Origin: Aminobacter niigataensis
GTDB taxonomy: Bacteria; Pseudomonadota; Alphaproteobacteria; Rhizobiales; Rhizobiaceae
DNA length: 64,000 nucleotides
NCBI RefSeq assembly: GCF_014200015.1
Contig: NZ_JACHOT010000006.1
Coordinates: forward strand, 186,001 to 250,000
Reading direction: 5' to 3'
The position numbers and the translations under genes are program-made. Each line of letters begins with the position of its first letter. Position 1 is the first letter of the stretch. Below the pieces are notes generated by a model. That model saw only the letters and a list, made by a program, of their open reading frames with translations, ran no database searches and was not told the DNA's origin. Positions 22,644 to 38,847 of this stretch are shown in pieces.

Positions 22644-23699
22644 TTGAACGCGTTGCAGACGTCCATGAATCTCGGCCGCTTTCGAATATTCACCAACATT
22701 GCCATCTTCGCCTCGTCACTGATCGTGACCATGCTGGTCGTGGCCGGTCTCGTCGAACTGATCGGAGGCAGCGCCACCAGCGCACTTTCCGCGATGGTCG
22801 AGGGCGTGCTCGGCAGCCGCCAGGCTATCGTTGAAACGGTGATCGAGGCGACACCCACAGCACTTTGCGGGCTGGCGTTCCTGATCCCGTTCAAGGCAGG
22901 CTTCTTCAACATCGGCGCGCAAGGTCAGCTGCAGCTCGGTGCGCTGGCTGCCGTCTTCGTCACCACGGCCTTCACGCTGCCCGCTCCCTTGATGGTCGTT
23001 CTGGCATTTGCGGCCGCGGCGGCCGCGGGGATGCTTCTCATCGTTCCACCTTTGTTGCTCAAGACGAAACGCGGCGCCAGCGAGGTGACGACGACGGTGA
23101 TGCTGAACTTCGTCGCCGTTGAGTTCGTGCTCGCGATGGTCACCGGCCCGATGAAGCAGCCGGACTCGTTCTTCGCCGAATCCGCGCTGATCCCCGTCGA
23201 GTATCGCCTGCCGGTGATCGTCGTGCATGTCGGCGTGTTCCTTGCCGTCGCCATCGTGGTGATCGCGGGCTGGATCCTCAAGCACACGGTTTTCGGGTTC
23301 CGCCTCGAGGCGCTCGGCGGCAACCCGGGTGCTGCCCAGGCGCTGGGCATGCGCACCAACATCACATTGACCAAGGCCGTGCTCGCTGCGGGGGCCATCG
23401 CTGGAATTGCCGGTGGCATACAGGCGCTTGGGGTCGTGTTCCAGGTTGCCGAGCTTTGGGCGAAACCGTGGGGCTTTCTCGGCATCCTCGCTGCCCTTAT
23501 CGGCCGCAGTCCGGTCGGCGTGATGTTTGCCGCCCTGCTGCTCGCCGGCCTCGAAACGGGCGGTAGAAACATGCAGGCGATGACCGGGGTGCCGGCGGCG
23601 CTGGTCTTCCTTCTGCAGGCATTGCCGGTGTTGCTGCTCCTTGCCGTCAGATCGACGCATCTTTTCAAAATGATCTCTTTTGGCGGAGTGGGACGTTGA
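22644..23699 (+). CDS. BMP-type (purine/nucleoside) ABC transporter permease 1
   Basis: Inner-membrane channel subunit of about 351 residues with ten or so helices. The NupB/PnrC-like hallmarks are GLAFLIPFKAGFFNIGAQGQLQLGA (about 70-94) and the helix pair around KTKRGASEVTTTVMLNFVA. The TTG at 22644 is preferred because GAGGA lies six bases upstream; ATG 22665 is an alternative. It is the first gene of a four-gene importer (two permeases, binding protein, double ATPase). Characterised relatives transport nucleosides, guanosine or lipoprotein-bound purines, so a purine-like substrate is likely. Confidence 0.9.
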   Translation: MNALQTSMNLGRFRIFTNIAIFASSLIVTMLVVAGLVELIGGSATSALSAMVEGVLGSRQAIVETVIEATPTALCGLAFLIPFKAGFFNIGAQGQLQLGALAAVFVTTAFTLPAPLMVVLAFAAAAAAGMLLIVPPLLLKTKRGASEVTTTVMLNFVAVEFVLAMVTGPMKQPDSFFAESALIPVEYRLPVIVVHVGVFLAVAIVVIAGWILKHTVFGFRLEALGGNPGAAQALGMRTNITLTKAVLAAGAIAGIAGGIQALGVVFQVAELWAKPWGFLGILAALIGRSPVGVMFAALLLAGLETGGRNMQAMTGVPAALVFLLQALPVLLLLAVRSTHLFKMISFGGVGR

Positions 23700-24595
23700 T
23701 TTTCGATCTCGAATTTGTGCTCTCCGCGCTGCGTATCGCCACGCCGCTCATGATCGTCGCACTGGGCGTGCTGATCGCCGAGCGGGCAGGCGTGCTGTTC
23801 CTGGGCGCCGAGGGCGTCATGCTGTGCGGCGCCTTGTTCGGCATACTCGGCGCCGTCTATGTCGGCGATCCCTGGATGGGCGTGGTCTGGGGACTGAGCG
23901 CCGGTGTGGTCATGGGGCTTGTCACCGCGGTGTTGACCGTCTGGCTACCGACAGACCAGGTGGTCATGGGGCTGGCGATGAACATCGCGGCCATCGGACT
24001 GACCAGCTTCATCTTCCGCATCGCCGCCGACGACCTGCAGCAGATGAGCCCGCCCATGGGCTGGTCGGCACCGGGCGCGCTCAGCGAGAACCCGATCGCC
24101 GCGTTCCTGTTCGCCGTTCCGCCATTGGCGTGGCTGGCGGTCATCCTCTACTTCGTCGTCTGGTACATGCTGTTCCGCAGCGCGCCTGGGCTGTTGCTCC
24201 GGTCAGTGGGGCAGAACGTCAAGGCGGCGCGCTCCGCCGGCATCAACGTCGTGCTGGTGCGCACAGTCGCCCTGGCGCTTGCCGGCGGCCTCGCCGGCCT
24301 GGGCGGTGCTGCCCTGACGGTTGGCTGGGTCCGCAGCTTTGCCGACGACATCACCGCGGGACGTGGTTTCATTGCGCTGGCGGCAGTCTATTTCGGGCGC
24401 TGGTATCCGCGCTGGACGCTGTTCGGCTGCCTGCTGTTCGGGCTCGGCGAGGCACTGGCCCTGCGCACCCAGGTGCTCGGCGGCAACGCCCATTTCTACC
24501 TGATGATCCCATACCTTCTGACGGTCGGCGTCCTTGCCTTCGCAGAGCGCGGCTGCGCGCCGCGTGAGGTCGGCAAGCCCTACGAGCAGCTTTGA
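23696..24595 (+). CDS. BMP-type (purine/nucleoside) ABC transporter permease 2
   Basis: Second channel subunit, 299 residues, with about nine helices. The family block LIAERAGVLFLGAEGVMLCGA sits near residues 25-45, and GQNVKAARSAGINVVLVRTVALALAGGLAG forms the coupling region near 170-200. It starts with TTG whose bases overlap the stop of permease 1 (TTGA), giving tight coupling. The channel is a heterodimer of the two permeases. Confidence 0.9.
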   Translation: MIFDLEFVLSALRIATPLMIVALGVLIAERAGVLFLGAEGVMLCGALFGILGAVYVGDPWMGVVWGLSAGVVMGLVTAVLTVWLPTDQVVMGLAMNIAAIGLTSFIFRIAADDLQQMSPPMGWSAPGALSENPIAAFLFAVPPLAWLAVILYFVVWYMLFRSAPGLLLRSVGQNVKAARSAGINVVLVRTVALALAGGLAGLGGAALTVGWVRSFADDITAGRGFIALAAVYFGRWYPRWTLFGCLLFGLGEALALRTQVLGGNAHFYLMIPYLLTVGVLAFAERGCAPREVGKPYEQL

Positions 24596-24645
24596 TCGCT
24601 GCGTCGAACATATTTCTGCAACTATAACTTGGGGAGAGAGCAATA

Positions 24646-25653
24646 ATGGGTACCTTTACAGCAGCCATTGGCAGGCATTTCGGCCGAATGCTCGCGGCAG
24701 TCGCACTATGCGGTGCCATGATCGGCACAGCTTCCGCGCAAGACAAGATCAAGGCCGCCGTGATCTTCGGCGTCAGCAACCCGGCTTCCGTCAACGGATG
24801 GGACCGCGGTCATTACCAGGGTGTGCGCAAGCTGATCGACGAGCACGGCTGGGACGTGACCATGGCTGAAAACGTGCCGTTCCCGCTGATCGCCAGCACC
24901 GCCGAGAACTATGCCAAATCCGGCTTCCAGGTGGTGATCTTCACCTCGAGCGGCCAGGTCAAGGCCTGGGATCAGGTGGCACCGAACTATCCGAACACAC
25001 TGTTCGCCATGCTGTCGACGACCAGCAGCCTGCCCAAATCCAACAACGTCGCCGCCTATGCGCCCGACTTCTATTCCTACGGCGTCATCAATGGGCTGAT
25101 CGCGGGCCAGGCCACCAAGTCCAACAAGATCGCCGGCGTCGCCGGATTGCCGGTCAAGGCAGTCGAGGACATGTTCAGCGGCATCATCGAGGGCGCCAAG
25201 GTCGTCAATCCGAACGTGGAATTCCTGTCGGCGTTTTCCGGCGACTGGACCAACATCCCGCGTGCCCGCGAAGTTGCCGCGCTGCAGATCCAGCGAGGCG
25301 CCGATATCGTGCTCGGCAATGCCGGCGTCGGCACCCGTGGCATTCTCGACGCTTCGCAAAGCGGCAAGACCAGATTCGTCGGCTACGCGACCGACTGGGC
25401 GGTAGATGCGCCCGAAACTGTGCTCTCCAGCGTCATTCTGGATGTCGCCGGCTGGTACGATGCTCTCGCCAAGGACGTGGCCTCGGGCAAGGTCGAGCCG
25501 AAGATCAACGAATTCGGCGCCAAGACCTTCTCCGTGATGCCGCTCAATAAAGAGCATCTGACGACGGAGGAAATCACCAAGATCGAAGACAGCGTGCGCC
25601 GGTATCAGGCAGGCGAATTGTCGGTTCCCGTCGTCGCGCACAGGTTCAAGTAA
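24646..25653 (+). CDS. BMP-family periplasmic substrate-binding protein
   Basis: Secreted binding protein of 335 residues. The signal peptide (about 1-31) ends in TASAQD and has no lipobox cysteine, so unlike PnrA/TmpC this one is soluble in the periplasm. The mature part has the basic-membrane-protein fold (NGWDRGHYQGVRKLIDEHGWDV, and SAFSGDWTNIPRAREVAALQIQRGADIVLGNAG). Family members bind purine nucleosides through stacking aromatics. GGAGAGAG lies before the ATG. It is placed third in the importer operon and presumably defines which heterocycle the downstream enzymes degrade. Confidence 0.9.
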   Translation: MGTFTAAIGRHFGRMLAAVALCGAMIGTASAQDKIKAAVIFGVSNPASVNGWDRGHYQGVRKLIDEHGWDVTMAENVPFPLIASTAENYAKSGFQVVIFTSSGQVKAWDQVAPNYPNTLFAMLSTTSSLPKSNNVAAYAPDFYSYGVINGLIAGQATKSNKIAGVAGLPVKAVEDMFSGIIEGAKVVNPNVEFLSAFSGDWTNIPRAREVAALQIQRGADIVLGNAGVGTRGILDASQSGKTRFVGYATDWAVDAPETVLSSVILDVAGWYDALAKDVASGKVEPKINEFGAKTFSVMPLNKEHLTTEEITKIEDSVRRYQAGELSVPVVAHRFK

Positions 25654-25662
25654 GGGAGCCGG

Positions 25663-27195
25663 ATGATGGTCGAGGCAAGTCCTGGAAGCGAAGCGGTAAG
25701 GCTTGAAGGTATCTCCAAGGCATTTGGCTCGTTCAAGGCCCTGGACAATGTCAGCGTTACTCTTCGGTACGGCGAAATCCATGCGCTGGTCGGCGAAAAT
25801 GGCGCCGGCAAATCTACGCTGATGAACGTGTTGTACGGGATCCTGCAGCCAAGCGCAGGTCGCATGCTCGTCGGCGGACAGGATGTCGGCTCTCATTGGT
25901 CGACACGGGACGCGATCGCCCACCAGATCGGCATGATCCACCAGCATTTCTCTTTGGTGATGGAACATTCCGTGCTCGACAACATCGTCATGCCGACACT
26001 GAAATGGACCGATCTGGCCCCCAAATGGGGCCAGTATCGGGAGCGGTTCAGCGAGTTGTCGGCGCAGTTCGGCTTCGAACTGTCGCCTGACACATTGGTG
26101 GGCAAACTGTCCGTCGGGCAGCGCCAGCAGGTCGAGATACTGAAGATGCTCTACCAGGGGGCAAAGATCCTGATCCTGGACGAGCCGACGGCAGTTTTGA
26201 CCCCGCAGCAGAGCGATCGTCTGCTGGAGATGCTGCTGCAGTTCCGCGACCGCGGCTATGCGGTGGTGATCATTACCCACAAGCTGGAACACGCGCTGGA
26301 TCTTGCCGATCACATCACCGTCCTGCGAAACGGCCGCCAGATCGCAACTGTAGCGAAGGGCGAGGGCACGATTGCCGACATCGCCCGCATGATGGTGTCG
26401 CAGGAGGTGAACACCGCGCAGCGGCGAAGCCGGTCGGCAGTGGGCGAAGTCGTGCTCGACATGGACAATGTCTCGCTCGACGTCGACGGGGTTGCCTTGC
26501 TCGACAAGATCTCCTTGCAGGTCAGGGAAGGAGAAATCCTGGGCGTGGCCGGCGTGGCCGGGAACGGCCAGTCCGAATTGGCCGAAACGATCATCGGCCT
26601 TCAATCCACCACTGCCGGCAGTATCAGTATCTACGGCAAGGAACTCGGGACCACCTCGGTCGAGGCGCGACGCCGGGGCGGTATCGCCATCATTCCGGAG
26701 GACCGTCACGCCCACGCGGTGGTCGGCGAGATGGACATCGCCTCCAACTTCATCATGGGCCACGAGGGCGAACCGCAGTTCTCCCGTCGCGGAATACTGA
26801 ATCGCAAGAACATCGCCGAGTTCGCAAAGCACTGCATCGCAGAGTTCGACGTCCGTACGCGCTCGGCGGAAACCAAACTCGAATTCCTGTCCGGCGGAAA
26901 CCAGCAGAAGGTGGTCATCGGCCGCGAACTGTCGGCCAATCCAAGGCTGATCATCGCGCACGAGCCGGCGCGGGGACTCGATTTCGCGGCCACCGCCTAT
27001 ATCAGGCAGCGCCTGGTGCAGGCGGCGGAAGCAGGAGCAGGCGTACTGCTGATTTCGAGCGATCTCGATGAGTTGATGGAGCTCTCGACTCGTGTCGTGG
27101 TGCTTTATTGCGGACGCGCCGTGGGCACCGTGGATGCCGACGCCTACGATCCGCAGCATTTCGGAAGCCTGATGGCGGGTGCCGAGGCGGCTTGA
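25663..27195 (+). CDS. BMP-type ABC transporter ATPase with two ATP-binding domains
   Basis: A 510-residue tandem ATPase. The first domain is canonical (Walker A GENGAGKST near residue 48, signature LSVGQRQQ, Walker B LILDEPTAVL). In the second domain the Walker A is degenerate (GVAGNGQSEL) and Walker B reads AHEPARGLD, with His in place of the usual Asp before Glu, though the signature SGGNQQK is kept. Such asymmetry is normal for nucleoside and sugar importers of this class, where one site drives transport. It starts nine bases after the binding-protein gene. Confidence 0.92.
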   Translation: MMVEASPGSEAVRLEGISKAFGSFKALDNVSVTLRYGEIHALVGENGAGKSTLMNVLYGILQPSAGRMLVGGQDVGSHWSTRDAIAHQIGMIHQHFSLVMEHSVLDNIVMPTLKWTDLAPKWGQYRERFSELSAQFGFELSPDTLVGKLSVGQRQQVEILKMLYQGAKILILDEPTAVLTPQQSDRLLEMLLQFRDRGYAVVIITHKLEHALDLADHITVLRNGRQIATVAKGEGTIADIARMMVSQEVNTAQRRSRSAVGEVVLDMDNVSLDVDGVALLDKISLQVREGEILGVAGVAGNGQSELAETIIGLQSTTAGSISIYGKELGTTSVEARRRGGIAIIPEDRHAHAVVGEMDIASNFIMGHEGEPQFSRRGILNRKNIAEFAKHCIAEFDVRTRSAETKLEFLSGGNQQKVVIGRELSANPRLIIAHEPARGLDFAATAYIRQRLVQAAEAGAGVLLISSDLDELMELSTRVVVLYCGRAVGTVDADAYDPQHFGSLMAGAEAA

Positions 27196-27211
27196 CGCCA
27201 GTTGGTCCTGC

Positions 27212-27460: not shown

Positions 27461-28648
27461 ATGGAAAACTACATTGCCGAATGGCTCCATCTGGTACTGC
27501 GCTGGTTCCATGTGGTCGCCGCGATAACCTGGGTCGGTTCGTCGTTCTACTTCAACAAGATTGACCGTTCGTTCCGGCCGCCGGAGCCGCCGGTAGACGG
27601 TGTCAGCGGTCAGCTCTGGTCGATTCATGGCGGTGCGATCTACAACTACAGCCGCTACCCGCTTGGCCCCGGTTACGTTCCGGGACAGCTGAAATGGTCG
27701 AAATGGGAATCGCTGGGCACCTGGATGTCCGGTGCGCTGCTCCTGGCCGTGGTCTATTGGTATGGCGCGAGCCTGAACCTCGTATCCGGCAGTGCCGATG
27801 CGCTTTCGCCGGTACTGGCGATATGCGTAAGCATCTTCTCGATCGTCTTCGGCTGGATCGCCTATGACGTGATCTGCAAGCAGATCAACGACGAGCGCAT
27901 CCTGTTTGCCGTGCTCGGCGTCCTGCTTTCCGGTGCGGTGTGGGCGTTCTTCCAGATATTCAGCGGCAAGGCGGCGTTCCTGCATGTCGGCATCGTCATG
28001 GGTACGATCATGGCGGGCAACGTCTGGTTCGTCATTCTGCCGGGCCAAAAGCGCATGCTCAAAGCCATGGCGGATGGAACGATCGCCCAGTTCGACGTCG
28101 GCGCCGAAGCCAAGAAGCGCAACTATCACAACAACTACCTGACCCTGCCGGTGGTCTTCGCAATGATCGGCGCCCATTTCCCGATGGTCTATGGGCATGA
28201 ACTGGGCTGGCTCGCCTTCATCCTGATCAGTGCCGCCGGCGTTTCGGTGCGCTACTTCTTCAATACGATGCACGCTGGCGAGGCCAGGCCCATCTACATC
28301 GCCTTCGGCGCGGCGCTGATCCTGGCCACCATGTTCATGATCGCTCCGACCCCGCGCAGCGTTGTGTCCGGTGAAACGCCCACCGTCACCTACAGCCAGG
28401 TTGCCGACATCCTCACCCAGCGCTGCGTGGCTTGCCATGCGGCAGATCCGTCGAAGGCGGGTTTTGTCGAGGCGCCGCCCAAGGGGCTGATCCTGGACGC
28501 CGCGCCGTCCGCGGTGAAAGCCGCCCAACTTGTCTACCAGCAGGCTGTCCAGACGCATGTCATGCCGCCTGGAAACGTAACCGAGATGACCGACGACGAG
28601 CGCGAACTGCTTCGTCAGTGGATCGAAGGCGGAGCCAAGGCGGAGTGA
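27461..28648 (+). CDS. puuD: PuuD-like membrane-bound urate oxidase with C-terminal cytochrome c domain
   Basis: A 395-residue inner-membrane redox enzyme. The N-terminal 300 residues have the PuuD/urate-oxidase-N pattern (WLHLVLRWFHVVAAITWVGSSFYF near 8-29, then several helices with conserved histidines and NTMHAGEARP). The C-terminal part is a periplasmic c-type haem domain with CVACH at 322-326 and a probable axial Met near 368. PuuD hydroxylates urate to 5-hydroxyisourate and passes electrons to the respiratory chain. Here a different purine-like ring is possible because the usual next-step genes are absent. It leads the catabolic genes, with puuE starting three bases after its stop. Confidence 0.87.
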   Translation: MENYIAEWLHLVLRWFHVVAAITWVGSSFYFNKIDRSFRPPEPPVDGVSGQLWSIHGGAIYNYSRYPLGPGYVPGQLKWSKWESLGTWMSGALLLAVVYWYGASLNLVSGSADALSPVLAICVSIFSIVFGWIAYDVICKQINDERILFAVLGVLLSGAVWAFFQIFSGKAAFLHVGIVMGTIMAGNVWFVILPGQKRMLKAMADGTIAQFDVGAEAKKRNYHNNYLTLPVVFAMIGAHFPMVYGHELGWLAFILISAAGVSVRYFFNTMHAGEARPIYIAFGAALILATMFMIAPTPRSVVSGETPTVTYSQVADILTQRCVACHAADPSKAGFVEAPPKGLILDAAPSAVKAAQLVYQQAVQTHVMPPGNVTEMTDDERELLRQWIEGGAKAE

Positions 28649-28650
28649 AC

Positions 28651-29586
28651 ATGAGCGAACAGGACAGCCAGGGCCCGGCGCGGGATTTCATAGGCTACGG
28701 CGCAACCCCACCAAATCCGAAATGGCCCGGTGGTGCCAGGCTGGCGGTGAACATCGCCCTCAATATCGAGGAAGGTTCCGAATACTCGCCGCTCGACGGC
28801 GATGCCAAGACCGATACCGCGTTGACCGAAGGCGAGGGGATGGACACCGGCATCGCAGGGCGCGATCTCGCCGCCGAGTCGATGTACGAATATGGCAGCC
28901 GTGTGGGCGTCTGGCGGCTGCTGCGCATGCTTGCCGACCGCAACGTGCCCTACACCGCCTTTGCTTGTGCCCTGGCGCTGGAACGCCACCGCGAACTGGC
29001 CGAACGCATTGCCGCCGACGGAGCCGATATCTGCTGTCACGGCTGGCGCTGGGAGAAGCCCTGGCTGCTGACGCGTGAGCAGGAGCGCGAGCACATACAG
29101 CGCGCCATCGACAGCCTGCAGGCAACCGTCGGACGCAAGCCCGAAGGCTGGTGCTGCCGTTACGGGCCCAGCACGAATACACGCGAACTGCTGGTAGAGG
29201 CGCAGATCGGCTACGATTCCGACGCCTATAACGACGAAGTCCCCTATTGGGTCGAGGTCAGGGGCGTCCAGCAGCTCATCGTGCCCTATTCGCTGGTGAC
29301 CAATGACTGCAAGCTGGTGCCGCGCGGTCTTCAGACGGCCGACGAGTTCCATGCTTTGCTGAGAGATGCCTTCGACCAGCTCTATGAAGAGGGCGCTGAA
29401 GCGCCGCGGATGCTGAATATCGGGCTGCATCCGCGTATGGCCGGCCACCCCGGCCGAGCACGCGGCCTTGCTCGATTCCTCGACCACATTGTCGGGCACA
29501 AGGACGTCTGGATCTGTCGACGCGCCGACATTGCCAGCCATTGGAAGACACATTTTCCTGCTCCGGCCACAGGTGCGGAGGCATGA
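28651..29586 (+). CDS. puuE: PuuE-like allantoinase / cyclic-amide hydrolase (polysaccharide-deacetylase fold)
   Basis: A 311-residue cytosolic hydrolase of the NodB-like barrel fold. The PuuE-type start (DFIGYGATPPNPKWPGGARLAV, then IEEGSEYSPLDGD) and the SMYEYGSRVGVWRLL segment mark the metal-independent allantoinase subgroup, which opens the hydantoin ring of allantoin. Whether this member acts on allantoin or on another ring-opened intermediate is unclear. The ATG follows GGAG. Its stop overlaps the start of the M17 aminopeptidase (ATGA), so the two are coupled. Confidence is high for family and moderate for reaction. Confidence 0.82.
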   Translation: MSEQDSQGPARDFIGYGATPPNPKWPGGARLAVNIALNIEEGSEYSPLDGDAKTDTALTEGEGMDTGIAGRDLAAESMYEYGSRVGVWRLLRMLADRNVPYTAFACALALERHRELAERIAADGADICCHGWRWEKPWLLTREQEREHIQRAIDSLQATVGRKPEGWCCRYGPSTNTRELLVEAQIGYDSDAYNDEVPYWVEVRGVQQLIVPYSLVTNDCKLVPRGLQTADEFHALLRDAFDQLYEEGAEAPRMLNIGLHPRMAGHPGRARGLARFLDHIVGHKDVWICRRADIASHWKTHFPAPATGAEA

Positions 29587-31061
29587 GCGATGGGTCATGT
29601 TCCACCTCGGTCGATCGCATACTGCGTGGACCCGATGCCGTCGTGTTGTGCCTGACGGCTGATCAATCGGATCACCCAGAGCTTGCCGCGGTCGAAACGA
29701 GACTTCGCCTCGCTTCAGGCTCCGTTCCGCGGCCGCTCTTCCTGGAAAACCGGAATATGCCAGTCGTCGCTGCCCGGCTCGGCGCCGACATTGCCGACGG
29801 TCGACGCCAGGCGGCGCAGGCCGTGGGCACCTTGCGCAAGATGAAGGTGGAGGGAGCGGCTATCGTCATCCCGTCTCGCTGCCAACTGGGGGACGATCCG
29901 GAACTCAAGCTGCAAGCGATCGCCGAAGGCGCTTTTCTCGCAAACCACGACTTTGTTTCGCGGGCCTTTCCCCGTTCCGGGGAACCTGCCCTGAGGCTGG
30001 GTTTTGCCTTTGGCAGTGGATGGGAGAGTGCCAAAGCCGACCGCGCGCTCGAGAGGGCGCGAGCGATAGCCGATGCCGCCGCGCTGGCGCGCGACCTTTG
30101 CACCGAGCCGCCTAACGTGATGACGCCGCCGCATTTTGCGGCTCGCATGAAAGAACTCGCAATCGAGGCCGGCCTGTCCATCTCGATCATGGGCCGGGCG
30201 GAACTCGAAAAGCAGGGCATGGGCGGGCTGCTGGCCGTGGCTTCGGGCAGCGCCTTCGAGCCGTTGCTGATCCGCATCGACTACAGGCCGGAGGGGGTGA
30301 CGCAGAAGCCGGTCGTCCTCGTCGGCAAGACCGTCACCTTCGACAGTGGCGGCATTTCGCTCAAGCAGGCCCACGGCATGGAGCAGATGAAGGCCGACAT
30401 GGGCGGCGGAGCGGCAGTCGCCGGCGCCATGCAGGCGGTTGCCAGACTGAAGCCTGATCTTGCCGTGACCGCGATTTTCGCGGTCGCGGAAAATATGCCG
30501 GGCCCCAATGCGATGCGGCCAGGGGACGTGCTGCGTACCCATTCCGGCAAGACTGTCGAGGTCATCAACACCGACGCCGAGGGCCGGCTGATCCTGGCGG
30601 ATGCATTGTCATACGCCCGGTCGCTCGAACCACAGCTGATCATCGATCTGGCGACGCTCACCGGCGCGACCATGGGCATCTTTGGCCCGCTCGGCATTGC
30701 CACTTTCTCGACGGCGCCTTCCTGCCTGTCATTGCTCATCGAATCCGACAGGGTCGCCGGCGAGAAGATCTGGCCAATGCCGCTGTGGGATGAATATCTC
30801 GCCTTCCTGGAGAGCCCGGTCGCCGACCTGCGCAACTTCTCGAAGACCGGGCAGATGGGCAGCACGCCAGTCGCGGCGATGTTCCTGAAGCAGTTTGTGG
30901 GCGACGCGCCATGGCTGCATCTCGACCTCTACAACACCTGCTGGTCGGAACAGCCGCACGTCTTCGGGCCTTCCGGACCGACCGGCAGCGGGACCCGCGT
31001 GCTCACGCAATTCGTGCTCGCGCTCGCCGACCGTGATCCCACTCGCAGCTCTTCAATTTAA
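29583..31061 (+). CDS. M17 leucyl-aminopeptidase-family enzyme
   Basis: A 492-residue member of the two-zinc M17 family. The C-terminal catalytic domain keeps all expected residues: K249, D254 and K261 in VGKTVTFDSGGISLK, D272, and D331, E333 and R335 in NTDAEGR. The N-terminal 170 residues are a divergent macro-like domain. House-keeping PepA is normally encoded alone; this one begins inside the puuE stop and sits amid catabolic enzymes. It may therefore hydrolyse an aminoacyl-amide formed in the pathway rather than peptides, which is inference. Confidence 0.87.
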   Translation: MSDGSCSTSVDRILRGPDAVVLCLTADQSDHPELAAVETRLRLASGSVPRPLFLENRNMPVVAARLGADIADGRRQAAQAVGTLRKMKVEGAAIVIPSRCQLGDDPELKLQAIAEGAFLANHDFVSRAFPRSGEPALRLGFAFGSGWESAKADRALERARAIADAAALARDLCTEPPNVMTPPHFAARMKELAIEAGLSISIMGRAELEKQGMGGLLAVASGSAFEPLLIRIDYRPEGVTQKPVVLVGKTVTFDSGGISLKQAHGMEQMKADMGGGAAVAGAMQAVARLKPDLAVTAIFAVAENMPGPNAMRPGDVLRTHSGKTVEVINTDAEGRLILADALSYARSLEPQLIIDLATLTGATMGIFGPLGIATFSTAPSCLSLLIESDRVAGEKIWPMPLWDEYLAFLESPVADLRNFSKTGQMGSTPVAAMFLKQFVGDAPWLHLDLYNTCWSEQPHVFGPSGPTGSGTRVLTQFVLALADRDPTRSSSI

Positions 31062-31079: not shown

Positions 31080-31469
31080 ATGGCAATTCGTACCATCTAC
31101 TCGCCCAAGGTTCTTGTTTCGCCGAACCCGCATTCCCAGGCCACCATGGCCGGCAATCATTTCTACACCGCGACCGTGGCGCTGGATCTGGAAGGCAAGG
31201 TCGTGGGCGTCGGCGACATCCGGGCGCAGACCAGGCAGGCCCTGACCAACCTGACGCACTTGCTCGAAGCGGCCGGTGGCACCCTCAAGGACGTGGCACG
31301 GGTCATGATCTACCTGTCCGACATGCGTTATTTCCAGGGCATGAACGAGGCCTACCGGGAGTTCTTCCACGGCGACGTGCTGCCGTCGCGCGCAACCGTC
31401 ACCGGCACCTTCGGCATACCGGAACTGCTCGTCGAATTCGATGTGATCGCGCATATCGAAAACGACTGA
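31080..31469 (+). CDS. RidA-family enamine/imine deaminase
   Basis: A 129-residue protein of the YjgF/YER057c/UK114 fold, normally a homotrimer. The conserved arginine lies in LPSRATVTG (about residue 102) and the late glutamate in LLVEFDVIA, both matching the active subgroup that hydrolyses enamines and imines to ketones plus ammonia. Within catabolic operons RidA proteins act on specific intermediates (RutC in pyrimidine breakdown, 2-aminomuconate deaminase in aminophenol breakdown). GAGGA lies nine bases before the ATG. Followed after ten bases by an amidase. Confidence 0.88.
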   Translation: MAIRTIYSPKVLVSPNPHSQATMAGNHFYTATVALDLEGKVVGVGDIRAQTRQALTNLTHLLEAAGGTLKDVARVMIYLSDMRYFQGMNEAYREFFHGDVLPSRATVTGTFGIPELLVEFDVIAHIEND

Positions 31470-31479
31470 GGTTCTGAAC

Positions 31480-32874
31480 ATGGCGTTATGGAAGCATGAT
31501 GTGGCCGAGCTCAACGCCGGCTACAAGTTTGGCAGGTTCGATCCGGTCGACGTCTTGTCGGAAACGCAGGCCAGGATTCGCGTCGCCAACCCGATCCTCA
31601 ATGCCATCATCACACCGGACGAGAAGGGGGCGGCTGAAGCCGCTCACGCCAGCGCCATGCGCTGGCGCGCCGGCCAGCCGCTCGGGCCGCTGGACGGCGT
31701 CCCGATCACCGTCAAGGACAACCTGCAGGTGCGCGGTTTGCGCTGCAGCTGGGGCAGCAAGCTGTTTGCCGACCATGTTCCCGACGCCGACGAGAGCCCG
31801 GTCGAACGCCTCAGGGCGGCGGGCGCCATCATTCTGGGCAAGACGAACGTCCCTGAATTCACCTTGCAGGGCTTTACCGACAACCTGCTCTTCGGCGCGA
31901 CGGGCAATCCATGGGACCCGAACCTGTCTCCAGGCGGGTCAAGCGGCGGCGCGGTTGCGGCGACGGCTTCGGGCATGGGCGTGTTTGCCGTCGGCACGGA
32001 CGGGGGCGGCTCGATCCGTCGGCCATGCGGTCACACCGGCCTCTATGGGCTCAAGCCGAGTCCGGGCTTCGTTGGCCGTAGTGGCGGGCTGCCGGGCCTG
32101 CTGCTCGATTTTGAAACCGTGGGGCCAATGACGCGAAGCGCGCGGGATCTGCGTCTCGCGGCGTCGGTCCTGGCTGCCCACGATCCGAACGACCGCGCCT
32201 CCTTCGCTTTCCCCGCCAAGGCGCGCATCGGCAGCTATCGCGTGCCCAAGACCACCAGGATCCTCTATGTGCCACGGTTCGGCTCGGCGCCAGTTGACAC
32301 CGAGATTGCGGCAAGCGTTGACCGCGCGGCCTCGCGGCTCGTCGATCTCGGCTGTCGCGTCGACCAGGGCGAGACGCCGTTCGACGCGGAGATGCTGGAC
32401 GCCATCTGGGGCATGGTCGGGCCGGTTGGGCTGGCCTGGCTGATGCAGACGAGGGATGCGACCCAGGTCAACGAAAGCCTCGTGCCGATGATACGCACGG
32501 GCGGCGAAGTCAACGCTATGTCCTATTTCGACATGCTCACTCAGGTGGGCAGGCTGAGGGCGCAACTGGCGAAGGTCTTTGCCACCTACAATTTCATCAT
32601 GACCCCCAGTATCGCGGCCCTGTCATGGCCGAAGCTGGAGACGCATCCGTCCCGGATCAATGGCATCGAGGTCGGGCCCCGCGGTCACGCCGTCTTCACC
32701 GCCTTCGCCAACGCAGGTGGATTGCCCGGTGTAGCCATTCCCGCCTCGCCATCGTCTGGCGGCCTGCCGATCGGCTTCCAGCTTGTCGGCGCGTTCGGGT
32801 CGGACAACAGCCTCATCGATCTGGCCGAACACTACGACAACGCCTACGGAGGTTATCAATGGCCGGCGATCTGA
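31480..32874 (+). CDS. Amidase-signature-family amidohydrolase
   Basis: A 464-residue cytosolic amidase. The Ser-cisSer-Lys triad is complete: K79 in ITVKDN, cis-Ser S154 in GGSSGG and nucleophile S178 in GGGSIRRPC. Members cleave aryl or alkyl amides, carbamates or transfer ammonia; GatA-specific partners are absent here, so it is a catabolic amidase. It would release ammonia or a carboxylate from a ring-opened amide in this pathway. It overlaps the next gene by 16 bases. Confidence 0.88.
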   Translation: MALWKHDVAELNAGYKFGRFDPVDVLSETQARIRVANPILNAIITPDEKGAAEAAHASAMRWRAGQPLGPLDGVPITVKDNLQVRGLRCSWGSKLFADHVPDADESPVERLRAAGAIILGKTNVPEFTLQGFTDNLLFGATGNPWDPNLSPGGSSGGAVAATASGMGVFAVGTDGGGSIRRPCGHTGLYGLKPSPGFVGRSGGLPGLLLDFETVGPMTRSARDLRLAASVLAAHDPNDRASFAFPAKARIGSYRVPKTTRILYVPRFGSAPVDTEIAASVDRAASRLVDLGCRVDQGETPFDAEMLDAIWGMVGPVGLAWLMQTRDATQVNESLVPMIRTGGEVNAMSYFDMLTQVGRLRAQLAKVFATYNFIMTPSIAALSWPKLETHPSRINGIEVGPRGHAVFTAFANAGGLPGVAIPASPSSGGLPIGFQLVGAFGSDNSLIDLAEHYDNAYGGYQWPAI

Positions 32875-33605
32875 CCTCCCAGGCAGGCGAACTGCTGCTA
32901 TCGGCTCACCGCACCGGGGTCGGTGTGGAGCCTGACATGCCCGCTCCGCAGAGCCGTGCCGATGCCTATGCCATCCAGGATCATGTGTTGCGCCAGCTCG
33001 GCTCGGCGATCGCGTGGAAGATCGGACGGGCGGCCAACGATCCCGAGCCCTATATCGCGCCGATCCCGAAGCTCGGCATCGTGCGACCGGACGGGCGCTG
33101 CGTGTTGCCCCCGGGCGCTGCCCAGCTTGGTGTTGAGGCGGAACTGGGCATGCGGCTTGGCAAGGAGATCACGCCGGAGATGGCAACGTTGGGTCGGGCT
33201 GAGTGCCTGGCGCTGTTCAGCCATGTCGTTCCGTTGCTTGAGATCTTGCACACTCGACTTGCCGGGGCCAACGCCGCAGCGCCGCTTTGGAAACTGGCGG
33301 ATTTTCAGGCCAGCGGCGGTGTTGTTCTTGGGGCGCCCATCGCTTGGACCGGGCAGGATCTGGCTTCGGTTCAGGTCATGGTCAATGGCGAGGCGAGGGA
33401 GGCTAGGCATCCCTTCGGCGATCCGCTCGAACTGTTGCACTGGGCGGTCCGGCATCTCGCGCGGCGCGGCGGGGCGCCGACAGGCACGGTGCTGACCACA
33501 GGCAGTTATACCGGCATCACCCAGGTTGGTGCCGGCGAGCGGTTCGAAGCTGAGTTCTCCAGGTTCGGCGAAGTCAGGACGCAGGTCATTTCGCCCGGCC
33601 ATTGA
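32859..33605 (+). CDS. 2-oxopent-4-enoate hydratase / 4-oxalocrotonate decarboxylase family protein
   Basis: A 248-residue member of the MhpD/FAH-like fold. Recognisable parts are the N-terminal AYAIQDHVLRQLG, the metal-binding VEAELGMRLGKEI (about residues 88-100) and the closing GTVLTTGSYTGITQVGAGERFEAEF, which matches the usual GDxVxxGSxT-type end. Such enzymes hydrate or decarboxylate dienoic keto acids in meta-cleavage pathways. This implies a carbon skeleton of at least five atoms, longer than anything from urate. GGAGG lies six bases before its ATG, inside the amidase gene. Confidence 0.82.
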   Translation: MAGDLTSQAGELLLSAHRTGVGVEPDMPAPQSRADAYAIQDHVLRQLGSAIAWKIGRAANDPEPYIAPIPKLGIVRPDGRCVLPPGAAQLGVEAELGMRLGKEITPEMATLGRAECLALFSHVVPLLEILHTRLAGANAAAPLWKLADFQASGGVVLGAPIAWTGQDLASVQVMVNGEAREARHPFGDPLELLHWAVRHLARRGGAPTGTVLTTGSYTGITQVGAGERFEAEFSRFGEVRTQVISPGH

Positions 33606-33697: not shown

Positions 33698-34864
33698 ATG
33701 ATGCACCAAGGGACCCACTTCCTGCAGATACCGGGACCTTCGCCCGTGCCGGCGGACGTCCTGGCGGCCACGGGCCGCCAGGTGATCGATCACCGCGGCC
33801 CCGAGTTCGGCGAACTGGGTTCCAAGCTGCTCCGCGACATCAAGAAGATCTTCAAGACCCAGCATGACGTGGTGATCTTCCCGGCTTCGGGCACCGGTGC
33901 GTGGGAAGCTGCGCTGGCCAACCTGTTTTCGCCCGGCGATCGCATCGCCACCTTCGAGACTGGCCATTTTGCCAGTCTCTGGAGCCGCATGGCGATCAAG
34001 CTGGGGCTCAAGCCGACCACGCTCGGCACCAACTGGCGCGCCGGTGCCGATCCGGCCGTGATCGAAGACGCGCTGCGCCAGGACCGCAACCATGAAATCC
34101 GCGCAGTGTGCATCGTGCACAACGAGACCTCGACCGGTTCGACCTCCCGCCTGGCCGATATCCGCGCAGCCATCGATGCGGCCAACCACCCGGCGCTGTT
34201 CGTGGTGGACACGATCTCGGGGCTGGCGTCGGCCGATCTGCGCATGGACGAGTGGGGCATCGATGTCGTCGTGTCTGGTTCGCAGAAAGGGTTGATGCTG
34301 CCGCCCGGCCTGTCGTTCAACGCGGTTGGCCCAAAGGCCCTCGAAGCGTCGAAGGCTGGCGGCATGCCTCGCTCCTATTGGGACTGGAGCGAGATGATCG
34401 CCATCAACAAGAGCGGCTACTTTCCCTACACCCCGGCCACCAATCTGCTGTTCGGCCTGTCGCTCGTGCTCGACAAGCTGCTCGACGAAGGACTGGAGGC
34501 CGTGTTTGCTCGCCACGAGCGCCTTGCCGAGGCCACCCGCCGCGCAGTCCAGGCCTGGGGACTCGAGAACCTCTGCAACTCTCCGATCCACTATTCGCCG
34601 GTGCTCACCACCGTCATGATGCCGGAGGGCCATAGCGCCGATGCCTACCGTCGGATCGCGCTGGAAAAGTTCAACATGTCGCTTGGGTCGGGCCTGTCGA
34701 AGGTTGCGGACAAGGTGTTCCGCATCGGCCATCTTGGCAACATCAACGAACTGACGCTTGCCGGCACGCTTGCCGGCTGCGAGATGAGCCTCGACCTCGC
34801 CGGCGTTCCGCATCAGCGCGGTGGCGTCGACGTGGCGATGAAATACCTCGCGGAAACGGCTTGA
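33698..34864 (+). CDS. Class V aminotransferase, serine/alanine/ureidoglycine-glyoxylate type
   Basis: A 388-residue PLP enzyme of fold I. The N-terminus LQIPGPSPVPADVLAATGRQVIDHRGPEF and PLP lysine K197 in VSGSQKGLMLPPG identify the glyoxylate aminotransferase group. Relatives include serine-glyoxylate aminotransferase, alanine-glyoxylate aminotransferase and the PucG enzyme that uses ureidoglycine in purine breakdown. In a PuuD/PuuE cluster the last is attractive, but sequence alone does not decide. GGGAGAAG precedes the ATG. A 92-base gap before it may contain a separate promoter. Confidence 0.87.
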   Translation: MMHQGTHFLQIPGPSPVPADVLAATGRQVIDHRGPEFGELGSKLLRDIKKIFKTQHDVVIFPASGTGAWEAALANLFSPGDRIATFETGHFASLWSRMAIKLGLKPTTLGTNWRAGADPAVIEDALRQDRNHEIRAVCIVHNETSTGSTSRLADIRAAIDAANHPALFVVDTISGLASADLRMDEWGIDVVVSGSQKGLMLPPGLSFNAVGPKALEASKAGGMPRSYWDWSEMIAINKSGYFPYTPATNLLFGLSLVLDKLLDEGLEAVFARHERLAEATRRAVQAWGLENLCNSPIHYSPVLTTVMMPEGHSADAYRRIALEKFNMSLGSGLSKVADKVFRIGHLGNINELTLAGTLAGCEMSLDLAGVPHQRGGVDVAMKYLAETA

Positions 34865-34969
34865 GGGTTGGTCGCCATGACGGCACTGGCAGAGGCTGGG
34901 CACGATCCCCGTCTTCGCCGATGTTCGCGATCGATCTAAATGGCGCGAAATGAATTTTGGGAGGACATC

Positions 34970-35368
34970 ATGAAATCGACGACGAAAATCGAACAGGGCG
35001 ACATCGAGCGGGTGTTGGCGGCAGCTGTAGCTGAGGCAGCCTCCAACGGCTGGAACGTCAGCGTCGCCGCAGTCGATCCCGGTGGCCATCTATTGGGGTT
35101 CATCCGGCGTGACGGCGCCAACGCCGCTTCGGCCGAGGTGGCCGTGGCGAAGGCACGTACGGCTGCAATCTTCAACGGTCCGACAGGTGCACTGGAGGAT
35201 CGCATCGCAGGTCGTCCAGGCGTCATGACCTTGCCGGGTGCAACACCGCTGCGTGGCGGGCTGCCGCTTGTCGCAGGTGGCGAGCTTGTCGGCGCTATCG
35301 GCGTTTCCGGCGTCGCACCGCAGCAGGACGAGCAGATCGCGCAGGCAGGGGCCGCAGCACTCGGTTGA
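34970..35368 (+). CDS. GlcG/HbpS-family small protein
   Basis: A 132-residue protein of the GlcG/HbpS (DUF336) family, recognised by the VSVAAVDPGGHLLGFIRRDGA segment (about 29-50) and the closing GAIGVSGVAPQQDEQIAQAGA. Members bind haem or act as accessory subunits encoded in many catabolic operons; their reaction is usually unknown. The start is set at the ATG with GGGAGG five bases upstream, not at an earlier in-frame ATG at 34940. It lies between the aminotransferase and dehydrogenase genes. Confidence 0.82.
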   Translation: MKSTTKIEQGDIERVLAAAVAEAASNGWNVSVAAVDPGGHLLGFIRRDGANAASAEVAVAKARTAAIFNGPTGALEDRIAGRPGVMTLPGATPLRGGLPLVAGGELVGAIGVSGVAPQQDEQIAQAGAAALG

Positions 35369-35427
35369 CTTGCCATCACCCGCTCGCAACGGTGCCTCGG
35401 CATCACCCGCTTCAAGAAGGCAACGCC

Positions 35428-36450: not shown

Positions 36451-36477
36451 CAAGGCTGAAAGGCGGGAGACAAAGGC

Positions 36478-37737
36478 ATGACAGGACAGCCTCGGCTACT
36501 GCTGCGAAATGGTATGTCTCCCGTGGGCACGGGTGGCTCGGCCCCTATCGACATCCTGATTTCCGCCGAGGGACGGATGCTCGATATCGCACCGGGGATC
36601 TGCGCCAGCGAAGTGATGTCGATAGACGTCGGCGGACGTCTGGTTACACCCGGCTTCGTCGACATGCACCAGCATCTCGACAAGAGCTTCACCTTGGCTG
36701 ACGCGCCCAACCGTGACGGCACGTTGATGGGCGCGATCGAGGCGTTCCGCGCCTATTCCAAGGGGCTGGAAAAAGAGAACATTCTCAAGCGCGCCGAAGC
36801 GACGCTCGACACATGCGTCGCGATGGGCACGAGCGCTATCCGCACGCATGCCAATCTCGACTACGAGCTGGAACTCAAGAGTGTCGAGGCCATGTGCGAA
36901 CTGCGGGCGAAAAGCCGTGGCAGGATACACCTCGAGGTCGTGGCCTTTGCAACGTCGAGTGCGGCGCGGGGCGATCTGGCTGTCGCACGCGAACTTCTCG
37001 AACGCGCCATTGCGGCCGGTGCCGACTGCATAGGCGGCACGCCCAATCTCGCTCCCGACCCCAGGAACTATATCGACATGCTCCTTGACGTAGCCGAACG
37101 TCATGACCGCTGCGTGGATCTGCATATCGACGAAACGCTCGACCCCGGCGCACGCTGGTTCGACTATCTTGTCGAGCAGACAATGCGGCGCGGCATGGGC
37201 GGCAGGGTGGTCGGCAGCCATGTGTCGTCGCTTTCCGCGGTCTCCGACGACGAGGCACGACGTTCGATCGATGCCGCCGCCAAGGCCGGCGTCGCCGTAT
37301 GCACGTTGCCCGCGGCCAATCTGTTCCTCCAGGGCAGGGACAGGCGTCAACTCGTGCCGCGCGGCCTTACCCGCGTGGCGGAGATGCTCGACGCCGGCGT
37401 GCCGGTGGCGACCGCTTCCGACAATATCCAGGACGCCTTCGTTCCCGTCGGCTCCGGCGATCTGCTCGAGATCGCGCGATGGACCATCCTTGCCGCTCAC
37501 TTGATGGAGGATGCGACCGGCCGTGCCTTTCGCATGATCACCGACACACCCGCGCAGATCATGCGACTGGGCGCCGATTACGGCTTCCGTGCCGGCGCCT
37601 TCGCCGATCTTGTCGTGAGCCGCAGCGAAAATGTCGGGCGTCTCGTCGCCGGTGGCGCTGCCGACCGTTCGGTCATGCATCGTGGGGAATTTGTCGCGGG
37701 CCCGCTTTGCGCAATCCACACGGCTGTTCCCGCCTAG
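36478..37737 (+). CDS. Cytosine-deaminase-like metal-dependent amidohydrolase
   Basis: A 419-residue TIM-barrel enzyme of the cytosine deaminase subgroup. Metal and catalytic residues are in place: H64 and H66 in VDMHQHLDKS, H216 with E219 in DLHIDET, H248 in GSHVSSLS, and D315 in SDNIQDAF. It would hydrolytically remove an exocyclic amino group from, or open, a nitrogen heterocycle. In this island it may prepare the imported ring for the PuuD-like oxidase. Cytosine itself is not required as substrate; related enzymes act on isoguanine, creatinine and s-triazines. Confidence 0.87.
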   Translation: MTGQPRLLLRNGMSPVGTGGSAPIDILISAEGRMLDIAPGICASEVMSIDVGGRLVTPGFVDMHQHLDKSFTLADAPNRDGTLMGAIEAFRAYSKGLEKENILKRAEATLDTCVAMGTSAIRTHANLDYELELKSVEAMCELRAKSRGRIHLEVVAFATSSAARGDLAVARELLERAIAAGADCIGGTPNLAPDPRNYIDMLLDVAERHDRCVDLHIDETLDPGARWFDYLVEQTMRRGMGGRVVGSHVSSLSAVSDDEARRSIDAAAKAGVAVCTLPAANLFLQGRDRRQLVPRGLTRVAEMLDAGVPVATASDNIQDAFVPVGSGDLLEIARWTILAAHLMEDATGRAFRMITDTPAQIMRLGADYGFRAGAFADLVVSRSENVGRLVAGGAADRSVMHRGEFVAGPLCAIHTAVPA

Positions 37738-37896
37738 AAGACCAGGCACGATCTGCCGCCGGCATGAAGGGCCAGATGGCTCGTCATGCGCCATTGCCGC
37801 CGGGGCCTTCATGCGCTGCCTGGAGTTCGGCCGCGCGATGGACCTTCGAGCGGCTTTCTGCAATGGTATTGCTTGGGGGAGACGACACGCATTTCA

Positions 37897-38847
37897 ATGA
37901 AAAATGTCACCATCAAGCAGTTGCGCGCATTCGTTGCAGTCGCGGAATTAGGACGCTTTCGGCTCGCAACCGAGCATATCGGCGTGACGCAGTCCGCCAT
38001 CAGCGTCTTGATCAAGGAACTTGAGTCACAATTGGGCGTGATGCTGTTTGATCGGCATACGCGCATGGTCGGGTTGACCTATGCGGGAGAGATATTCCTG
38101 CCGCTGGCCCGCCGGGCCATCGAACAGGTCGACAATGCCATCAACACGATGGATGACATTGCGTCGCTTCGAACCGGCAAGGTTACGATCGCTGCGGCCA
38201 TCGTACTTGCCTCGTCGCTCCTGCCCGACGTGATTGCCCGCTTCAAGAAAGAGCATCCGCTGGTCAAGGTGTCGCTGCTGGACTTGCCGGAGAATCGTAT
38301 TCGCGATCTCGTTGCGGACGGTTCCGTCGACATCGGTGTCGCCACCAGCCGTCCAATCGAAGAAAAGGTGCGCGAGCACCATCTCTTCTACGACCGTTTT
38401 GCGGTGTTCTTTGCAAAGGGCCATCCATTCGAATCCGGCACGCAGGTTCGCTGGATCGACATGGAGGGGCAAGATCTCGTAGGCTTTCCCCCCGACAGTC
38501 CGATCCAGAAAATGGTGGATCGCGTATTGGGTGAGAACGAGATTTCCGTAAACCGGCTCTTTGCCGTCAATTTCTCATCGACGATGCTGTCCCTGGTCGA
38601 TCGGGGTCTCGGGGTGTGCATTGCTCCAGAGAACTCTCACTCGCTGTCGGCCTCGACCCTTACCGAGGTGCGCCCCCTGGTAGAGCCGCAACTAGATCGG
38701 GAGGTGGTCACTCTGACCTTGCGCGAGCGGACCCCGAGCACGCCGGTGCGCAGCTTCCTCGACATGCTGATTGCAAGCGCAGCGAAGCAATATCCGAAGG
38801 TATCAAAACCCGCATTGACGGTGGCGACGGCAAGGTCGGCGGGTTGA
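37897..38847 (+). CDS. LysR-family regulator of the catabolic island
   Basis: A 316-residue regulator with the N-terminal helix-turn-helix (VTIKQLRAFVAVAELGRFRLATEHIGVTQSAISVLIKELE, about 4-43) and a periplasmic-fold effector domain (TGKVTIAAAIVLASSLLPDVI from about 92). It lies last in the row and points the same way as the catabolic genes, with a 159-base gap, so it is probably expressed from its own promoter. It is the nearest candidate to sense the pathway's substrate or an intermediate. Confidence 0.9.
   Translation: MKNVTIKQLRAFVAVAELGRFRLATEHIGVTQSAISVLIKELESQLGVMLFDRHTRMVGLTYAGEIFLPLARRAIEQVDNAINTMDDIASLRTGKVTIAAAIVLASSLLPDVIARFKKEHPLVKVSLLDLPENRIRDLVADGSVDIGVATSRPIEEKVREHHLFYDRFAVFFAKGHPFESGTQVRWIDMEGQDLVGFPPDSPIQKMVDRVLGENEISVNRLFAVNFSSTMLSLVDRGLGVCIAPENSHSLSASTLTEVRPLVEPQLDREVVTLTLRERTPSTPVRSFLDMLIASAAKQYPKVSKPALTVATARSAG

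Follow-up and report, generated by a model that had tools for sequence, protein, structure and literature searches.

A plasmid-borne gene block of Aminobacter niigataensis that may encode a second oxidative pathway for a urate-like heterocycle

Why should a bacterium that encodes the ordinary urate pathway also carry a divergent pair of PuuD- and PuuE-family genes, embedded among enzymes that are not part of that pathway? The question is raised by a stretch of 64,000 nucleotides of Aminobacter niigataensis DNA (RefSeq assembly GCF_014200015.1, contig NZ_JACHOT010000006.1, positions 186,001 to 250,000), referred to here as the window, in which 15 genes on the + strand form a block at positions 22644-38847. 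Our reading, drawn from sequence and held with middling confidence, is that this block encodes a second oxidative pathway for a urate-like heterocycle (purine-derived, or of the imidazolone or hydantoin type), distinct from the resident pathway and most likely ending in glyoxylate. An initial annotation of the same DNA had already seen here a catabolic unit that includes PuuD- and PuuE-like enzymes and differs from the ordinary urate pathway, and the recurrence of the block in three other loci bears that description out. The annotation did not contain three points developed below, namely the presence of a canonical pathway with UraH and UraD in the same genome, the position of the PuuE-like enzyme off the allantoinase clade, and the rarity of the block as a plasmid trait.

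The resident pathway lies on other contigs of the same genome. Contig C10 encodes a canonical PuuD, which scores 457 bits against 340 for the PuuD of the island (PuuD'), together with UraH, a PuuE-UraD fusion, and xanthine dehydrogenase and guanine deaminase (recognized from translations; searches also found guaD and xdhB), and contig C4 encodes a second PuuE with a UraD-like C terminus (37%). A canonical-type PuuD was found in 10/10 genomes of the genus and also, on other contigs, in the genomes of two further carriers of the block, L002 (41%) and L003 (37%); PuuD' and a canonical PuuD occur together in all three island-bearing genomes that were searched. Queries with UraH and UraD gave no match in the window, in the carrier loci L001-L003, in the flanks of L002 and L003, or in the loci L081 and L082, although the same queries found the canonical site and S. 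meliloti. Those with AllA gave no match in the island loci or at the canonical site and matched only in Bosea (L112), which limits their reach, and no M20-family allantoate amidohydrolase (AllC) was seen in the family scans of the 15 genes, from which alone this is judged. The set of UraH, UraD, allantoinase and AllC or AllA that leads from urate to glyoxylate in the canonical pathway is therefore not found in the block, which, as judged from gene content, is separate from the ordinary urate pathway.

Profile scans against Pfam and NCBIfam recovered every family that the initial annotation had named, and the coordinates agree with its account of genes on one strand with several overlaps (4 bases between permA and permB, 4 between PuuE' and M17, and 16 between the amidase and MhpD-like genes). 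The 15 genes are listed below in order; identities are to orthologues in the other carriers, L001 (Oceanibium sediminis), L002 (a Hyphomicrobiales metagenome-assembled genome, MAG) and L003 (a Rhodobacteraceae MAG).

22665..23699, + strand: permA, ATP-binding cassette (ABC) permease (BPD_transp_2, Pfam 110.6 bits); L001 orthologue 70%; ATG start, from the length annotated in L081
23696..24595, + strand: permB, ABC permease (BPD_transp_2, Pfam 106 bits); L001 orthologue 72%
24646..25653, + strand: BMP-family (PnrA-like) periplasmic binding protein (Pfam Bmp, 97 bits)
25663..27195, + strand: ABC transporter ATPase, double domain (Pfam ABC_tran, 183 bits, two stretches)
27461..28648, + strand: PuuD', membrane DUF989/Urate_ox_N domain with C-terminal cytochrome c (Pfam Urate_ox_N, 339 bits)
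28651..29586, + strand: PuuE', putative cyclic amide/imide hydrolase, sister to allantoinase PuuE in the tree (TIGR03212 about 337 bits, below the cut-off of 424.6)
29583..31061, + strand: M17 dinuclear metallo-aminopeptidase family hydrolase (Pfam Peptidase_M17, 362 bits)
31080..31469, + strand: RidA-family imine/enamine deaminase (Pfam Ribonuc_L-PSP, 77 bits)
31480..32874, + strand: amidase of the amidase-signature family (Pfam Amidase, 294 bits)
32859..33605, + strand: MhpD/NahK-type FAH-fold 2-oxoacid hydratase/decarboxylase (Pfam FAA_hydrolase, 38.5 bits, cut-off 23.9; structure model)
33698..34864, + strand: class V aminotransferase, relative of BhcA and serine-glyoxylate aminotransferase (Pfam Aminotran_5, 77 bits)
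34970..35368, + strand: GlcG/HbpS-like protein (Pfam 109.5 bits); orthologues 52% in L002 and 56% in L003
35428..36450, + strand: D-2-hydroxyacid dehydrogenase family (Pfam 2-Hacid_dh_C, 125.6 bits); orthologues 56% in L002 and 57% in the L003 flank
36478..37737, + strand: amidohydrolase of the cytosine deaminase/AtzC type, probably acting as a base deaminase (Pfam Amidohydro_3, 87 bits against a cut-off of 29.7; best NCBIfam score 265 of 403)
37897..38847, + strand: LysR regulator (Pfam LysR_substrate, 138 bits); orthologues 66, 48 and 44% beside PuuD' in L001, L002 and L003

The starts given for permA (22665), GlcG (34970), the dehydrogenase (35428, a GTG) and LysR (37897) are probable corrections based on start codons and on gene lengths in the orthologous plasmids; for the amidase, a GTG at 31501 is the start annotated in the plasmid orthologues. 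The catalytic motifs that were checked are intact across the block (PuuD', M17, amidase, RidA, aminotransferase, FAH-fold enzyme and deaminase), and the residues checked in RidA, M17, the amidase, the FAH-fold enzyme and the deaminase are ones that we take to be catalytic.

PuuE' departs from the canonical pathway. It falls short of the TIGR03212 allantoinase cut-off (336.9-337.2 against 424.6 bits), whereas the two other PuuE proteins of its own genome score 530 and 524. The loop that reads WYTGR in the solved allantoinase 3cl6 is WCCRYGPS in PuuE'. A scan of 84,980 species genomes with PuuE' yielded 149 relatives, and among the 80 of these whose loci were examined, 76 of 76 further loci have Tyr where PuuE' has Cys and keep the Tyr but not TGR. 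In a tree of 32 of the 89 aligned rows, the four YTGR proteins and the resident protein L108 (GLYLGR) form a clade with 100/100 support that excludes the island, and the YTGR enzymes and PuuE' stand in different starred clades. This placement outside the allantoinase clade appears to be a more telling sign of the block's separateness than anything in PuuD'. It also bears on annotation more widely, as the members of this PuuE-like subfamily (the 76 further loci, none with the YTGR loop) can carry the annotation allantoinase PuuE, for instance in Bosea L112. An AllA-like gene is within reach in 17/80 of the PuuE-like loci, the family call coming from one scanned representative. The same set of loci contains a recurring cluster in relatives of Devosia, Rhizobium and Roseobacter (L045, L046, L049, L053, L057, L062, L067 and others), made up, though not completely in each locus, of an M32 peptidase, a class I/II aminotransferase, a VOC protein, an AstE/AspA-like hydrolase, a YCR-type PuuE-like enzyme, an AllA-like protein and a DHDPS-like aldolase. 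In Verticiella sediminum (L004:6894-10909), a lone island-type PuuE (69%) follows directly on the TRAP genes DctP, DctQ and DctM, and the contig ends just beyond; searches of that genome for PuuD (E<=1e-20) and for the aminotransferase (E<=1e-60) were both negative.

PuuD' retains the architecture of the PuuD family, a DUF989/Urate_ox_N domain followed by a cytochrome c with CxxCH and a distal Met (CVACH at 322 and MPP at 368), and both cytochrome motifs are kept in all four copies from the window and L001-L003. It is 65-67% identical to the proteins of L001-L003 and 37-41% identical to canonical copies, and in a tree the six island PuuD' sequences are split from 18 canonical ones by a branch with 100/100 support. 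An AlphaFold2 model from four sequences was unusable (predicted local distance difference test, pLDDT, 48.6; predicted template-modelling score 0.39), and no solved relative was found at E<=0.01.

The block is a conserved yet rare, plasmid-borne trait. Its core, PuuD'-PuuE'-M17-RidA-amidase-MhpD-aminotransferase, recurs in identical order and on one strand in 3/80 of the PuuE-like loci (L001-L003). These are not four independent high-rank lineages together with the window, because L001 and L003 belong to one listed family of rhodobacter relatives and L002 to the order of the window. L001 shares the transporter and LysR genes of the window as well, and its contig stops shortly past the aminotransferase, so that it is uninformative for the genes at the tail. 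L002 and L003 keep GlcG and LysR, and within about 15 kb they carry orthologues of the dehydrogenase (56-57%) and of the deaminase (72 and 41%, respectively). For most core proteins, identity to the window falls from L001 through L002 to L003, the exceptions being RidA (91, 82 and 87%, respectively) and MhpD, for which L002 and L003 tie at 40 and 41%. The ratio of nonsynonymous to synonymous substitution rates (dN/dS) is below 1 in every gene pair that yielded a value, with a maximum of 0.73 for permB against L082 that derives from 3 changes; for the core against L001-L003 it ranges from 0.07 to 0.57, with PuuE against L003 undefined and dS near saturation for the distant pairs. Searches at wider ranks show how seldom the block occurs. 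RidA at E<=1e-35 found 1/397 genomes of the order, and PuuD' was found in 1/10 genomes of the genus and, at E<=1e-110, in 1/385 of the class, in each case the window's own genome; a PuuD' search of the L003 family at E<=1e-115 hit 1/394 genomes, that of L003 itself (for family and class, up to four candidates were scored per listed genome). Three of the 221 plasmid records with a PuuD match exceed 60% identity, and these come from two A. niigataensis strains.

That the window itself is Aminobacter plasmid DNA can be inferred from two such plasmids, paAMD1 of A. niigataensis MD1 and pUSP1 of Aminobacter sp. MSH1, which carry PuuD' genes 97-99% identical to that of the window and the same kinds of gene (MFS transporter, RND pump and minC) on either side of the block. 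Excerpts of the MSH1 genome paper (PMC8460812) reassign that strain to A. niigataensis and report one MSH1 colony that had lost pUSP1, which would open the question of the substrate to direct test; the words "purine" and "urate" do not occur in the main text of that paper.

The enzymes that follow PuuE' in the core are well conserved at their motifs. M17 keeps KTVTFDSGG and NTDAEGR in 4/4 loci; among the best 20 of 91 plasmid records, those relatives outside Aminobacter that bear an annotation are named leucyl aminopeptidase. RidA is 82-91% identical to its counterparts in L001-L003 and has Arg104 and a C-terminal Glu in 4/4, its best NCBIfam family being RutC at 73.6 of 169.1 bits, below the cut-off. 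An alignment of the amidases shows the Lys, GGSSGG and DGGGS motifs in 4/4, the aminotransferase has its pyridoxal phosphate Lys in 4/4, and the deaminase keeps the HxH, HxxE, H and D motifs in the 3/3 sequences compared (window, L002 flank and L003). Of five AlphaFold2 models for the MhpD-like protein, one is good (pLDDT 82.5, against about 33-59 for the rest); it matches HpcG, MhpD, NahK and the AP-3 decarboxylase-hydratase complex with template-modelling (TM) scores of about 0.72-0.82, and Lys54, Glu93, Glu95 and Glu128 are present in 4/4. The predicted fold and metal-site residues are thus those of a 2-oxo-4-enoate hydratase or 4-oxalocrotonate decarboxylase, although at the equivalog level the best NCBIfam score is 37.9 of 350 bits. 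Among 66 plasmid records with a relative of it, the gene context was read for two (38 and 34% identity); one of these relatives adjoins a 2-hydroxyacid dehydrogenase, and the surroundings of the other were uninformative. The solved chain closest to the aminotransferase is the serine-glyoxylate aminotransferase 6pk1 (367 bits), with PucG at 119 bits and 3isl and 3nnk as homologues. At the other end of the block, the solved structures closest to the BMP protein are Lbp 7x0r, 3s99 and the atrazine-binding protein 6pi5.

The neighbours of the block in other genomes suggest what it makes. In L003, a BhcD (503.7 bits, cut-off 500) is among the genes after the core aminotransferase, and BhcB (572, cut-off 550), BhcC (752, cut-off 690), a second BhcD (545, cut-off 500) and the dehydrogenase orthologue lie within about 11 kb of it; in the L003 flank (L122:3605-7869), BhcB, BhcC, BhcD and the dehydrogenase orthologue are downstream of the block's transporter genes. 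By its gene content L003 can run the beta-hydroxyaspartate cycle, which it encodes mostly beside the block, the core aminotransferase being a paralogue. The arrangement in Leisingera, where BhcBCD adjoin a canonical puuE-uraH-puuD, provides a precedent for urate oxidation and glyoxylate assimilation being encoded side by side. Glyoxylate is the best-supported candidate for the carbon product, on evidence from one relative (L003). The initial annotation had proposed a longer chain than can come from urate; nothing in the family names demands one, and the BhcB, BhcC and BhcD of L003 point to C2 glyoxylate instead.

The feed is more varied. Upstream of the core in L003 are an 8-oxoguanine deaminase (641.6 bits, cut-off 532), apparently pointing to a purine-like feed, and a cytosine-deaminase-like gene. 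The corresponding gene in L002 encodes a deaminase of the TRZ/ATZ type that does not reach the cut-off of any family shown, and L002 has in its flank (L121:8911-15653), about 8-15 kb downstream of the core, an NMT1-type ABC importer, a creatininase-family protein and the 72% deaminase orthologue. In Paroceanicella, genes for a BMP importer and an 8-oxoguanine deaminase are found near a PuuD-UraD pair. As importers and deaminases differ among loci and nevertheless feed one core, the pattern suggests that one deaminated ring, common to these loci, is the substrate of the core.

From these components we infer the substrate and the order of steps, which the gene order may mirror. The BMP importer would take up an amino-heterocycle and the deaminase would convert it to the oxo form; PuuD' would hydroxylate the ring, passing electrons to cytochrome c, and PuuE' would open it by hydrolysis. 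M17 and the amidase would then free the ureido or amide nitrogen, RidA would hydrolyse the imine at the former C5, and the MhpD-like metal enzyme would yield glyoxylate. It might decarboxylate a C3 2-oxoacid of the mesoxalate type, and so substitute for UraD at a later point in the route, or, with equal likelihood, split a ureidoglycolate-type intermediate. The aminotransferase and the dehydrogenase would work on glyoxylate or on the C3 2-oxoacid. Urate has a three-carbon chain, C4-C5-C6, which is normally shortened by UraD, and complete hydrolysis of 5-hydroxyisourate would yield mesoxalate. Because the block has no UraD, this chain could persist to a mesoxalate-type 2-oxoacid, and its retention would meet the puzzle of the longer chain without a larger substrate. 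In its most specific form, the proposal is of a UraH- and UraD-independent route for urate or a close analogue, in which PuuD' hydroxylates, PuuE' and the other hydrolases strip the ureas but leave C4-C5-C6 intact, RidA frees the ketone to yield a mesoxalate-type 2-oxoacid and the MhpD-fold enzyme decarboxylates this to glyoxylate; we offer it tentatively, as somewhat unlikely in this exact shape. If it were true, the intermediates would be other than those of allantoin, and a PuuD-family member and a new PuuE subfamily would be doing non-canonical work. N-methylurate, pterins and deazapurines were considered as substrates and were not supported. In keeping with the initial annotation, which knew of no named pathway with exactly this enzyme set, we found no description of it in the open-access literature, most subscription papers being outside that coverage; nor was anything on point found there, in the portions of text available (PMC9863593 included), for methylallantoin or methylurate, FAH-type ureidoglycolate lyase, imidases, mesoxalate with urate, or the beta-hydroxyaspartate cycle with urate or allantoin.

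Several observations weigh against a distinct pathway ending in glyoxylate. Of 89 positions invariant in the 18 canonical PuuD sequences, the six island copies all retain 68, and 5 are changed in some of them; the 16 changed in all include F60I, F80S, Y85L/M, S221N and N238A, and the others are conservative. (A larger set of 50 separating positions was dropped, as it rested on 13 canonical copies mostly from one genus.) The PuuD of Pseudoalteromonas (L113) is equally divergent in an xdh-uraD-uraH-guaD-puuD-puuE cluster, so divergence by itself is no proof of a new substrate. Residue 265 is Tyr in the three Aminobacter copies and His in 18/18 canonical and the three other island copies (RHxFNTxH becoming RYFFNTMH), which could mean an altered function here. 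The core aminotransferase scores 406 bits in the window and 409, 422 and 411.5 in L001-L003 against the NCBIfam BhcA cut-off of 650; its identification as BhcA was rejected, as it is below the cut-off in 4/4 and the L003 genome encodes a true BhcA, at 749 bits, on a different contig. The BhcBCD genes beside the block may therefore serve that enzyme, and their placement could be incidental. In the genome of the window, a BhcC relative at 34% is all that was found of this set, for which reason glycine or glycolate would be the sink for glyoxylate there. Finally, L002 and L003 are metagenome bins, whose genes on other contigs could be misbinned.

One alternative is that the block is a redundant second pathway for urate, or from 8-oxoguanine to urate, which on balance we consider rather unlikely. 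PuuD' would oxidize urate, the products 5-hydroxyisourate (HIU) and 2-oxo-4-hydroxy-4-carboxy-5-ureidoimidazoline (OHCU) would decay spontaneously or through resident UraH and UraD, PuuE' would be an allantoinase that has diverged, and the usual enzymes of allantoate, ureidoglycine and ureidoglycolate would have their substitutes in M17, RidA and the FAH-fold enzyme. The 8-oxoguanine deaminases near the block in L003 and, with a BMP importer, near the PuuD-UraD pair of Paroceanicella are consistent with this, as are the availability of UraH and UraD elsewhere in the genome and the divergence of L113. However, plain redundancy is hard to maintain in a genome that has the canonical set with two above-cut-off PuuE proteins, PuuE' is outside the allantoinase clade, and the block is held together in distant genomes without a UraH or UraD match.

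The MhpD-like enzyme raises a different alternative, that the substrate is a larger or different heterocycle (a pterin, lumazine, deazapurine, pyrimidine or cyclic imide), the chain left on opening it being long enough to need a true 2-oxo-4-enoate hydratase after RidA and the amidase, as in pathways of the 2-aminophenol type. In fold and profile it groups with 2-oxopent-4-enoate and 2-oxohept-3-enedioate hydratases and with 4-oxalocrotonate decarboxylases; the best RidA family, RutC, belongs to pyrimidine use, albeit below its cut-off, the deaminase is cytosine-deaminase-like, and the aminotransferase, not being a true BhcA, may use another 2-oxoacid. We nonetheless judge this quite unlikely. 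In excerpts of the 2015 PuuD paper (PMC4562309), purine degradation is the one process to which gene context links full-length PuuD-family proteins; the family scans of the 15 genes revealed no ring-cleaving dioxygenase, and the BhcB, BhcC and BhcD beside the block in L003 indicate a C2 product.

A creatinine- or hydantoin-type pathway, in which the deaminase would make a hydantoin, PuuD' would hydroxylate its C5 and PuuE' would open the ring to give glyoxylate and (methyl)urea, is very improbable: the 72% deaminase orthologue of L002 does adjoin a creatininase-family gene and an NMT1-type importer, PuuE-family enzymes do open hydantoin rings (allantoin) and glyoxylate would be the product, but some 12 kb separate that creatininase gene from the core and none was among the genes scanned in the window block, L001 and L003 (where no dedicated search was made), and we know of no precedent for PuuD acting on monocyclic rings.

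The reading of a second, urate-like pathway thus has consequences for the PuuD family. The block contains a conserved clade of DUF989 proteins that has partners of its own, UraH and UraD not being beside it, which would mean either that the family acts on more substrates than are known for it or that a urate-like ring can be converted to glyoxylate by a second chemistry.

Elsewhere in the window, genes were assigned mainly by position relative to paAMD1. At about 3770-7375, a branched-chain-type ABC transporter adjoins a tryptophan 2,3-dioxygenase, an alpha/beta hydrolase and a member of the benzoate-CoA ligase family. At about 7460-10420 on the - strand, a LysR regulator accompanies a Zn-dependent hydrolase and an L-2-amino-thiazoline-4-carboxylate hydrolase, which may together form a route from thiazoline to cysteine. 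Plasmid-borne ftsZ and minCDE occupy about 10590-11630 (-) and 44738-46600 (+), minC being recognized by Pfam, and at about 50600-54480 a hydantoinase B/oxoprolinase family protein is followed by an ABC transporter.

Comparison with known systems places the block among several without equating it to any. The lower pathway of 2-aminophenol and 2-aminomuconate consists of a RidA-type deaminase, 4-oxalocrotonate decarboxylase and 2-oxopentenoate hydratase, and the block shares with it RidA-family and MhpD/NahK-fold enzymes, the close folds including the Pseudomonas AP-3 complex 8ih6; its 15 genes are, however, without an extradiol dioxygenase or semialdehyde dehydrogenase, and the profile scores are far under the family cut-offs. 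With the ureide pathway that employs ureidoglycine-glyoxylate aminotransferase (PucG/UGXT) it has in common a class V aminotransferase beside purine-type catabolic genes, but this enzyme is far closer to serine-glyoxylate aminotransferase (367 against 119 bits) and there is no M20-family allantoate amidohydrolase among the 15 genes. The beta-hydroxyaspartate cycle (BhcABCD) is approached through the BhcA-related aminotransferase of the core and, in L003, through above-cut-off BhcB, BhcC and BhcD nearby. Its full set, BhcA over the cut-off with BhcB, BhcC and BhcD, is not found in the window, and L003 has the last three beside its block: the core enzyme is below the BhcA cut-off in 4/4, the true BhcA of L003 is on another contig, and the BhcC relative in the window's genome is at 34%. 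With the canonical urate pathway (xanthine dehydrogenase, XDH; GuaD, PuuD, UraH, UraD and PuuE) the block shares a PuuD-family membrane cytochrome c oxidase followed by a PuuE-family hydrolase, a base deaminase and a LysR regulator. It differs in that PuuD' is at 37-41%, PuuE' is outside the allantoinase clade and XDH, UraH and UraD have no match in it, and to this framework it adds an M17 hydrolase, RidA, an amidase, a FAH-fold enzyme, an aminotransferase and a dehydrogenase.

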